Positions 4,270 to 8,121 of a stretch of DNA of 64,000 nucleotides are shown here, one piece after another. The notes beneath the pieces are model-generated. The model made no database searches, was not told the DNA's origin, and saw only the letters and a list, made by a program, of their open reading frames with translations. Position 1 is the stretch's first letter, and each line of letters starts with the position of its first letter. The DNA lies in NCBI RefSeq assembly GCF_009193155.1, contig NZ_VUKD01000005.1, forward strand, positions 124,001 through 188,000. The letters are read 5' to 3'. This DNA is from Georgenia subflava (GTDB lineage: Bacteria > Actinomycetota > Actinomycetes > Actinomycetales > Actinomycetaceae). A program made the translations under genes and the position numbers.

Positions 4270-4342
4270 GCCCCTTTAGCTCAGTGGATAGAGCGTCTGC
4301 CTCCGGAGCAGAAGGTCGCTGGTTCGAATCCAGTAGGGGGCA
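4270..4342 (+). tRNA. tRNA-Arg (anticodon CCG)
   Basis: The cloverleaf folds completely. The acceptor stem GCCCCTT pairs with AGGGGGC (one G-U), the D stem is GCTC/GAGC, and the anticodon stem TCTGC/GCAGA holds the loop CTCCGGA with anticodon CCG. The T stem is closed by GCTGG/CCAGT around TTCGAAT. The discriminator base is A and CCA is not encoded. It decodes CGG, a frequent arginine codon here. Confidence 0.97.
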
Positions 4343-4348
4343 CGGCCG

Positions 4349-5910: not shown

Positions 5911-6022
5911 GCGGCCATCCTTCCCTACGCGCAGCGAATACCTCTCTCCCACACCTCGACGGCACGAACTATGTGGACATCAGCCATCGGGGCGCCGTCG
6001 TCGGCTACATAGGTTGCAAGGC

Positions 6023-6292
6023 ATGAGAGACGACGACGGCGTCGGCCTGACCGGCCGGAAGGCGCTCGTGACCGGTGCCGCCAGCGGCATCGGCGCGGCC
6101 GTGGCGCGCGAGCTGGCCGGTCACGGCGCCGACGTGGTGGTCTGCGACGTCGACGCGGACGGTGCCCAGGCGCTGGCGGCGCAGATCGGCGGCGAGGCGT
6201 GGGCGGTGGATCTGTCGGACACCGCGGCGCTGGCGGACCTGCGCCTCGACGTCGACGTCGTGGTGAACAACGCGGGCATCCAGCACGATGCT
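6023..6292 (+). pseudogene. 5' part of an SDR gene (3-hydroxybutyrate dehydrogenase-like) cut by an IS
   Basis: Ninety codons encode the Rossmann nucleotide-binding half of a short-chain dehydrogenase: the glycine motif VTGAASGIGAAV near the N-terminus and VVNNAGIQH at the end. At 6291 the reading frame enters an IS110-family element. The missing half resumes at 7624. Joining 6023-6292 to 7624-8121 gives one open frame of 255 residues, a normal length for this family. QHxxxSPVEEFPP plus the active-site segment resemble D-3-hydroxybutyrate dehydrogenases. The start could also be TTG 6014. The gene is presumed inactive. Confidence 0.88.
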
Positions 6293-6302
6293 CCTATGGA
6301 TG

Positions 6303-7400
6303 TCAAGCGGCCTGTGGGAGGTCGGCGGCAAGGGATGAGGGGTGCGCGCCTCGGGCCTGAAGATCGTGGATCAGGGCTCGGTAGATGTCGCGGGCAATGT
6401 GGCGCTTGAGGCAACGCATGATGTCCTTCTTCGAGAGTCCTTGCTTGGTGCGGCGCTGGACGTAGGCCTTGGTGCGCGAGTCCCATCGCATGCGGGACAG
6501 GGCGATGGTGTGCAGGGCGTGGTTCGCGGCCCGGTCCCCGCCGCGGTTGAGGCGGTGGCGGTCCCGACGCCCGGAGGAGGCGGGGATCGGGGAGACGCCG
6601 CACAGGTGCGCGAACGCGGCCTCGGAGCGTAGCCGGTCGGGATTGTCCCCGGCGGTGGCCAGGAGCTGGCCGGCGACGTCGGTGCCGACGCCCATGCGGG
6701 CGAGCAGTGCAGGGGCGGCCTGGGTGGTCAGGGTCTTCAGCTCGGCGTCGAGCTCGGCGATCTCCTCGGCCAGGGCCAGGATCCGCCGGCCAAGGCGGCG
6801 CAACGCGGCCTTGGTCGCCCCGGTCGGGTCGGCCAGGTCGTCGGGGCGTAGCCGGGCGCAGGTCCGGGCCAGCTCGGTGGCGGAGAGGCCGCGCAGCTGC
6901 GCGCGCAGTGCCTCGGGGGCGGTGACCAGGAGCTGACGGGCCTGGTTGATGGCCTGGGTGCGGGCCTTGATCGCGGAGCGTCGCGGGACCCGCAGGGCGC
7001 GGATGGCCTCGACGATCCCGTCGCGGGTCTTCGGGGTGCCGGTGGCGCGGCCTGAGGCCACCGCGGTCGCGGCGGCGTAGGCGTCGATCGGGTCGGACTT
7101 GCCCCGCAGCCGTCGGGTCTTGCGGTCGGGGCGGTCGACCTCGACCACTCTCAGCCCGGACCGGGTCAGGACCCGGGCGAGCTCGGCACCGTAGGCGCCG
7201 GTGCCCTCGACTCCCACCGCGGCCACGGTGCCGTGGGAGCCGAGCCAGGTCATCAGCTGCCGGTAGCCGGCGCCGGTCGCCGCGAACTCCTTGTCGGCCA
7301 GGTGCCGGCCGAGCCCGTCGACCACCGCGGCGTGATGCGTCTGGCCGTGGGTGTCCACCCCGGCGATGACTTCCAGGTGCTGATCCGTCATGCTGGTCAC
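6303..7400 (-). CDS. IS110-family transposase (DEDD/serine recombinase)
   Basis: A 365-residue recombinase. The N-terminal RuvC-like DEDD domain shows GVDTHGQTH (Asp16), VGVEGTGAYG (Glu65) and DPIDAYAAA (Asp103, Asp106). A coiled-coil region follows, and the C-terminal Tnp domain has HLCGVSPIPASSGR, which holds the conserved serine (275 or 276). Length and motifs are complete, with no frameshift. GTG 7400 is chosen because GAGAGGA lies just upstream; ATG 7391 is an alternative. In the studied member IS621 such proteins act with a bridge RNA from the element's non-coding end, and a candidate is described separately. The gene reads opposite to the SDR gene it interrupts. Confidence 0.95.
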   Translation of the reverse strand: MTSMTDQHLEVIAGVDTHGQTHHAAVVDGLGRHLADKEFAATGAGYRQLMTWLGSHGTVAAVGVEGTGAYGAELARVLTRSGLRVVEVDRPDRKTRRLRGKSDPIDAYAAATAVASGRATGTPKTRDGIVEAIRALRVPRRSAIKARTQAINQARQLLVTAPEALRAQLRGLSATELARTCARLRPDDLADPTGATKAALRRLGRRILALAEEIAELDAELKTLTTQAAPALLARMGVGTDVAGQLLATAGDNPDRLRSEAAFAHLCGVSPIPASSGRRDRHRLNRGGDRAANHALHTIALSRMRWDSRTKAYVQRRTKQGLSKKDIMRCLKRHIARDIYRALIHDLQARGAHPSSLAADLPQAA

Positions 7401-7420
7401 TGCTGTCCTCTCGCTGATCC

Positions 7421-7610
7421 GGTGGGCAGCACGCGCCGGCCGGGCGGGCGGACAAGACAGTGGCGGGGCTTCTGAACCAAGCTCCTATGAGGTCACAGCG
7501 CCCGTCCGGTCGCGTGCGTGATGGTCCCTCGAGCGAGCCGACAGATCGCAAACAAGACAGCCGAGGCGTCGGTCAGCCCGTGAGTCAGACCCCACCCGAG
7601 GAACCACCAC
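7421..7610 (-). ncRNA. Putative bridge RNA of the IS110 element
   Basis: This non-coding DNA lies directly upstream of the transposase, where IS110-group elements encode the RNA that pairs with target and donor. In the RNA sense, CGGGCTGAC (7580-7572) is identical to the target flank at 7632-7624 next to the junction. CATAGGAGC (7489-7481) is identical to the far end of the element at 6298-6290, including the AG core. These fit a left target guide and a left donor guide. Each is followed 11-20 nt later by CTGTCTTGT (7560-7552 and 7460-7452), whose first CT would be the core of the right guides. The right donor guide pairs only over CACT and the right target guide is weak. RNA ends are unknown. 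Confidence 0.6.
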
Positions 7611-7623
7611 ACACATCATCACT

Positions 7624-8121
7624 GTCAGCCCGGTGGAGGAGTTCCCGCCGGACCGCTTCGCACGGATCCTGCGCCTGATGCTCGAGTCCCCGTTCCTCCT
7701 CACCCGGGCGGCGCTCCCGCACATGTACGAGCGCGGGTGGGGCCGCCTCGTGCACATCTCGAGCGCGCACGGGCTGCGGGCGAGCGCCTTCAAGTCCGCG
7801 TACGTCGCGGCCAAGCACGGGCTGGAGGGGCTCTCCAAGGTCATCGCGCTGGAGGGCGCGGAGCGCGGCGTCACGAGCAACTGCGTCAACCCCGGCTACG
7901 TGCGCACGCCCCTGGTGGAGAGGCAGGTGCGTGACCAGGCCCGGGTGCACGGCCTCTCCGAGGAGGACGTCCTCGCCCAGGTCATGCTCAAGAGCTCGGC
8001 GATCAAGCGCCTGCTGGACCCGACGGAGGTGGCCCGGGCCGTCACCTACCTCTGCTCCCCCGCCGCCTCGTTCGTGACCGGGAGCAACATCGTCCTCGAC
8101 GGCGGCTGGTCGGCCAGCTGA
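7624..8121 (+). pseudogene. 3' part of the SDR gene (3-hydroxybutyrate dehydrogenase-like)
   Basis: This is the catalytic half of the interrupted dehydrogenase, 165 codons to the stop at 8119-8121. It contains the Ser-Tyr-Lys active site (ISSAHG, then SAYVAAKHGLEG), NCVNPGYVRTPLVE and the C-terminal FVTGSNIVLDGGW, all strong for D-3-hydroxybutyrate dehydrogenase. It has no Rossmann motif and so cannot work alone. A GTG at 7633 could start a fragment. The downstream regulator gene begins within about 70 bp, so the insertion may be polar on it. Confidence 0.88.

Follow-up and report, generated by a model that had tools for sequence, protein, structure and literature searches.

The 64,000-nt stretch of Georgenia subflava DNA analysed here (the window) contains an IS110-group insertion sequence that very probably moves by RNA-guided recombination. 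The mechanism has been described recently and is not new in itself; the element is a well-preserved instance of it and represents a clear further IS110 bridge-RNA element with a likely variant core. Two 97% identical copies in one genome, two guide letters apart and each located at a matching place, form a natural retargeting series, and the change of address of RNA-guided transposons is testable by simple comparison of such copies.

The element and its recombinase

The element is inserted in a short-chain dehydrogenase gene, which is disrupted by the window copy (Table 1). Models of the Pfam family adh_short match both halves of this gene, which is taken to be 3-hydroxybutyrate-dehydrogenase-like, a name derived from a motif. 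The original prediction had described an IS110 element extending from 6290 to 7632. The assignment to IS110 is supported by family models; the ends had to be moved to 6287 and 7623 according to further copies and empty sites. The element ends with C6287, a base that it has in common with C7624 of the target, and A7623 is the first base of its own. The same end bases were found in a second copy and in a copy from a sister genome when the elements were compared. The left end comprises 223 nt (7623-7401), compared to 16 nt for the right end (6302-6287). An ordinary tRNA-Arg gene (ccg) lies near the element at 4270-4343.

The recombinase scores 176.7 bits, and thus over the cut-off, with NF033542, the NCBI model for IS110 RNA-guided transposases. 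A DEDD RuvC-like domain and a Transposase_20 domain with the catalytic serine, as expected for the IS110 group, are predicted from its sequence. At the level of protein sequence it matches the structures of IS621 (8wt6, E 2.9e-11) and ISCro4 (9t56, E 5.2e-10). Residues D16, E65, D103, D106 and S276 align with the catalytic residues of IS621.

Table 1. Features of the element, its predicted bridge RNA and the interrupted host gene (window positions unless a locus is named)
Feature	Position	Strand	Remarks
IS110-group element, 1,337 bp	6287..7623	-	base C common to both junctions (7624 left, 6287 right)
Interrupted short-chain dehydrogenase gene, 5' part	6014..6286	+	PF00106; orthologues L119-L125
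Interrupted dehydrogenase gene, 3' part	7625..8121	+	PF13561 to model position 236 of 236
IS110 recombinase, 365 aa	6303..7400	-	Pfam PF01548 (DEDD) and PF02371 (Transposase_20)
Left target in host gene, 9 bases	7624..7632	-	equals left target guide
Left donor (right end) CATAGGAGCATC	6287..6298	-	last three bases NTC in 76/76 readable right ends
TTGACA, -35-like box	6301..6306	-	17-nt spacer to GATGAT across circle junction
GATGAT, -10-like box	7615..7620	-	
Predicted bridge RNA, two stem-loops	7429..7613	-	5' end placed by putative junction promoter, 3' end by donor-loop stem
Target-binding loop, outer stem 5' side	7584..7608	-	
Left target guide CGGGCTGAC, positions 1-9	7572..7580	-	equals 9 host bases 7632-7624
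Target-binding loop, apical hairpin	7556..7570	-	helix 2
Right target guide TTTGCGAT	7545..7552	-	G7547 pairs shared C
Target-binding loop, outer stem 3' side	7520..7542	-	
Donor-binding loop, outer stem 5' side	7499..7517	-	
Left donor guide CATAGGAGC	7481..7489	-	equals left donor 6298-6290
Right donor guide CACTGTC	7456..7462	-	CACT pairs element's first bases AGTG
Donor-binding loop, outer stem 3' side	7429..7450	-	
Nested element	L053 1631-2909		IS110-family by Pfam

The predicted bridge RNA

According to the RNA model and the fold, the predicted RNA is located upstream of the recombinase gene in the long left end, as in the IS110 group. It contains two internal loops with target guides followed by donor guides, and the donor guides match the element ends (CATAGGAGC; CACT/AGTG in the window). 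RNA downstream of the gene, which characterizes the IS1111 group, is absent, as only 16 nt follow the gene.

A two-loop fold with the left target guide ahead of the left donor guide had been anticipated, together with a proposal to fold this region, and is borne out by covariation and by tests of own against swapped guides. For counting, the structure was taken from the window sequence, guides were kept unpaired, and 41 sequences were aligned with MAFFT. In this structure, 87.6% of the cells are paired and 27 pairs have changed on both sides; cells changed on both sides number 161, compared to 61.5 after shuffling and 31-69 with partners slid. The structure behind these counts derives from the window, and set 2 (see below) was aligned to the model, which works in favour of this reading. 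For helix 2, the apical hairpin, 98.5% of the cells are paired and three pairs have changed on both sides. RNAalifold recovered the target loop from the plain alignment and missed the outer stem of the donor loop. As a single sequence, the window fold is moderately unusual, with a minimum free energy of -107 compared to -96.1 for shuffled sequences (sd 5.0; z -2.2) and 6 of 200 shuffles as good. The RNA model matches the window at 7396-7623 with 221.6 bits, the window being among the sequences from which it was built. No IS110 RNA family was matched in Rfam, either at gathering scores or up to E 1, where a single match far under its cut-off was obtained. An apparent tandem pair of bridge RNAs in genome G836 was rejected since it looks like an assembly join with N between the two.

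All 50 right ends that were found among 54 loci have a TTGAC box at a distance of 14-16 nt from the junction, which suggests that the circle would carry a promoter, as is the case for IS621. In the excised circle, TTGACA of the right end would meet GATGAT of the left end, and the resulting promoter would drive the bridge RNA encoded in the left end. The second loop would then name the element itself, through pairing of the right end with CATAGGAGC and of the left end with CACT. The junctions show the one shared C, at which the recombinase would join circle and target with a chemistry modelled on that of IS621.

Guides and insertion sites of the window copy and its close relatives

Both 9-mers on which the bridge RNA had originally been postulated are present. 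On the minus strand, CGGGCTGAC was confirmed at 7580-7572 and at 7632-7624. CATAGGAGC occurs at 7489-7481 and 6298-6290 as described; it does not span the end of the element as had been supposed, since the last base is C6287 and the 9-mer therefore sits 3 nt inside the right end. The chance expectation of 0.001 was of the right order, with 0.0028 for CGGGCTGAC and 0.0005 for CATAGGAGC calculated from the base composition of the 223-nt left end. Pairing of the right donor guide through CACT (7462-7459) was likewise found; it is not limited to these four bases, as CACTGTC extends the pairing to GAC of the target, with which GTC would pair after the exchange. In the window copy, pairing between the right target guide and the right target is limited to position 10 plus the shared C, in agreement with the expectation of a match next to the core. 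The guide bases A7546 and T7545 are the handshake bases for T8 and A7 of the donor. In part, the short matches of the right guides represent handshake pairing, which is known from IS621.

A second copy in the same genome (L002) is 97% identical and a third copy in a sister genome of the same genus (L008) is 92% identical, each located at a different site; L008 and L044 (Georgenia sp. EYE_87) have the same element sequence and the same flanks. Flanks ending in CGGGCTGAC, TGATCTGAC and AGGCCTGAC go with the guides CGGGCTGAC, CGATCTGAC and CGGCCTGAC in the window copy, L002 and L008, respectively, so that guide and flank are identical at 8-9 of 9 positions in three copies carrying three guides. 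Copies in sites unrelated to CGGGCTGAC had been named in advance as evidence against a bridge RNA. L002 and L008 do lie in such sites, yet their guides match their own sites, and because the guides have changed along with the sites, the bridge-RNA reading is strengthened, the letter of that statement notwithstanding.

Between the window copy and L002 there are 41 substitutions, of which 38 fall in the gene and three in the 223-nt left end. Among the latter, two affect positions 3 and 4 of the left target guide and one is adjacent to the right target guide. From this pattern of differences, it is suggested that new targets arise by mutation of the left target guide, through which copies probably gain their new sites. 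Extended by one base of the right target, the guide of the window copy has 60 exact sites (CGGGCTGACG) in its own genome, and that of L002 has 34 exact sites (GATCTGACG) in that genome. In the sister genome G004, short relics of the left end of the element are found around position 1501 of L012 and L020; the relic in L020 apparently forms a short tandem repeat preceded by CTGAC.

Matching of guides and flanks across relatives

A first set of 83 loci (set 1) consisted of the best 80 of 259 relatives, from named genomes, together with the window copy, L002 and L008. A fixed rule, whose pattern prescribed the bases at donor positions 8-9 and target position 9, parsed 54 of these; the 29 failures include loci at contig ends, 15 loci with a nested element (see below) and divergent ones. 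Among 51 unique pairs, 5.67 of 7 positions are identical between the left target guide and its own flank, compared to 3.40 for shuffled pairs (maximum 4.12; 0 of 20,000 shuffles reach the observed value), with positions 8-9 outside the test and with some rows (e.g. L043, L070 and L093) retained in which the rule misplaced the guide. For positions 10-14 of the right target guide, 3.11 of 5 match the own target (shuffled 1.58, n=45, 0/20,000), and position 10 matches in 43 of 45 loci.

For set 2, 394 genomes of the class were searched using an RNA model based on set 1; of these genomes, 44, including that of the window, were matched at E 1e-15. Loci of set 1, further copies in the genomes of the window and of L038-L040 (G954) and one partial match were left aside. 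The remaining 75 matches were aligned to the model, and 67 were retained after eight had been dropped as duplicate, short or already used. Here, left guides match their own flanks at 5.34 of 7 positions (shuffled 2.34, maximum 3.04, n=67, 0/20,000); 12 of the 67 sites match at three or fewer of the 7 positions, some of them with an uncertain end or register. Since some species occur in both the named and the unnamed collection, the novelty of set 2 lies in its sites, and its lineages are not fully independent. The alignment to the model replaced a strict pattern parse of further loci, which failed for 55 of 72. The 16 new sites that it did parse gave 5.56 compared to 3.17 (0/20,000), and the right-guide test on six sites was weak, with 393 of 20,000 shuffles as high.

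Alternatively, the flank could serve as the template for a change of the guide once the element has inserted, e.g. through gene conversion, and the match would record the site without having chosen it. All three close copies show the match, and a single site cannot reveal the direction of copying, both of which would be compatible with rewriting. This explanation is nevertheless regarded as highly improbable, since the match stops at the edge of the guide: position 0 agrees in 12 of 51 cases (shuffled 9.4), position -1 in 25 of 51 (24.4) and position -2 in 14 of 51 (16.7). Furthermore, one guide is found at several sites in multi-copy genomes, with matches at 7-9 of 9 positions, namely in Streptomonospora (L038-L040) and in Streptomyces AC1-42W (L062, L064 and L067-L069). 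The chance that the 9-mer identities reflect coincidence or local composition, with sites picked by protein-DNA contacts alone, is negligible: CTGAC is frequent in flanks and left ends of the clade, for which reason shuffled matches already reach 3.40 of 7, but the swap tests have refuted this explanation, as neither set has a shuffle out of 20,000 that attains the observed match, 25 different 7-mer guides, of which the fixed rule misplaced a few, accompany their own flanks, and three near-identical elements switch guide and site together.

The core and the handshake

AG had been proposed as the core, which is not supported: according to the empty sites, the junctions have a single base, C, in common. 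For the dehydrogenase gene, the six closest sister orthologues (L119, L120, L121, L123, L124 and L125) are continuous across the site, and three more distant homologues (L126, L129 and L130) are likewise uninterrupted and contain no extra codon. At L104, the element splits an IS256 transposase gene (YFPD|WLLERR); a Pseudonocardia plasmid carries an intact relative with the sequence YFPDWLLERR. Since the codon required by a CA core is absent from the empty sites of both genes, only C is shared. A core dinucleotide CA (or AG) common to both junctions, in the usual manner of IS621-type elements, would imply a host allele with an extra codon. Reading the junction as GGAGCA/TCG with CA as core does preserve the frame of the dehydrogenase gene, but the extra codon is missing from the six closest orthologues and from the intact IS256 transposase gene, so that a shared dinucleotide is very unlikely and the CA candidate was discarded.

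Donor ends were recounted with positions 7-9 left free. Right ends were readable in 49 of 54 loci of set 1 and 27 of 67 of set 2, and all 76 read T followed by C. Target position 8 is A in 46 and C in 5 sites of set 1 (n=51) and A in 45 and G in 4 of the 49 sites of set 2 with a guide match of at least 5; the other 18 of the 67 sites were kept out of this count because the end or the guide is uncertain. Among them is L189, with a guide match of 2 of 7 and T at this position. Among the 100 targets whose guides match, none has T before the shared C. The dinucleotide common to donor and target in IS621 has no equivalent here, as the donor has TC in 76/76 readable right ends and position 8 of these 100 targets is never T.

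In IS621, the handshake involves positions 6-7, and the CT core is shared at positions 8-9, according to the original reports (PMC11208158; PMC11208160). In the elements analysed here, donor position 7 complements the handshake base of the target loop in 46 of 46 cases with three base types (the pattern allowed A, T and C), and target position 7 complements the handshake base of the donor loop in 42 of the 49 sites of set 2 with a guide match of at least 5. From the crossed guides and the contrast of T and non-T at position 8, which is shared in IS621, position 8 seems to be part of the handshake, unlike its counterpart in the IS621 core. Judging from covariation, the guide bases beside C would pair crosswise with the partner strand once the exchange has occurred. 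No handshake role for position 8 was found in the bridge-RNA and IS110 literature as far as covered, which was in part and largely outside subscription papers.

It is about equally probable that this actinobacterial clade does or does not recombine at a one-base core, with guides that are crossed at position 8 and pair with the partner strand only after the exchange. The bottom strands of IS621 are cut two bases apart. Such a stagger would swap the bases at position 8 in half of the descendants, and the 0 of 100 at left junctions suggests either a one-base stagger or strong selection. If real, a one-base core would widen the target choice for bridge-type recombinases and show which guide bases need crossing when a target is programmed.

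Relation to characterized elements

The element shares with IS621 a DEDD recombinase with a C-terminal serine domain, a bridge RNA in the left end with the target loop followed by the donor loop, left guides of 8-9 nt pairing with the bottom strand and short right guides pairing with the top strand, as well as handshake guides and a circle-junction promoter, the RNA and the promoter being predicted here. In contrast, the sequence match of the recombinases is distant (8wt6, E 2.9e-11), and target and donor have the CT core dinucleotide in common in IS621 and only C here. ISCro4 (9t56) also possesses an IS110-family recombinase of solved structure, with which the comparison extends to the protein sequence match alone. 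The seekRNA of ISEc21 and ISMch6 resembles the predicted RNA in its upstream position and in having the bottom-strand match 5' of the top-strand match, as stated in the respective study (PMC11187229). There, the target of ISEc21 is described as a conserved motif in IS3 transposase genes, and a relative with a 72% identical transposase represents a natural redirection with a changed guide (PMC11187229). Here, in contrast, the redirected copies are 97% identical, lie in one genome and differ in two guide bases. Members of the IS1111 group belong to the same transposase superfamily and differ in that the right end, following the gene, contains the RNA (PMC11208160), which here is located upstream.

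Landing sites of the clade

Many elements of the clade have TGA at guide positions 6-8. Using a simple GC-frame classifier, it was asked whether the TGA ends an open, best-coding upstream frame. This applies to 33 of 65 TGA sites, which directly follow the stop codon of a co-directional gene, compared to 67 of 554 for the CTGAC sites that these flanks contain (Fisher p 3.5e-12, with sites that are not all independent). Individually, the counts are 19/33 in set 1, 8/20 in set 2 and 6/12 for copies outside set 1. Other segment lengths gave 34/65 compared to 70/567 and 36/65 compared to 59/542, and an earlier run with fewer loci 20/33 compared to 33/263. Seven of ten scanned TGA-ended frames match Pfam, several to the model end, e.g. 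RtcB at 426 of 426. The combination of TGA guides and landing behind stop codons suggests how the elements limit harm to the host. The placement may also stem from the loss of harmful insertions, i.e. survivorship, with no preference involved. The window copy does not follow this placement. The guides of L087 and L093 point at a DDE transposase gene, and that of L104 at IS256.

A nested second IS110 element

In 15 of the best 80 named loci, a second element on the opposite strand lies inside the left donor guide (CATAG|GGAGC). In addition to L053, it was found in L052, L054, L056, L059, L061, L063, L076, L077, L095, L099, L102, L107, L108 and L112, comprising several subfamilies, with five of the 15 loci from one genome. 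Both junctions are visible in 12 of the 15 loci. The gene of the nested element belongs to the IS110 family by Pfam in L053, and similar frames are present in other loci. An origin of this module from TnpB or omega-RNA was rejected because the adjacent gene, which lies on the opposite strand, encodes another IS110 transposase. The bridge RNA is split by the insertion, and the RNA model accordingly matches two pieces (L053 and L061). By eye, guides of the nested element partly match the donor guide region, in L095 over approximately 10 nt. The nested element also occurs elsewhere; one of five full-length plasmid copies, among seven listed, has flanks resembling the donor guide.
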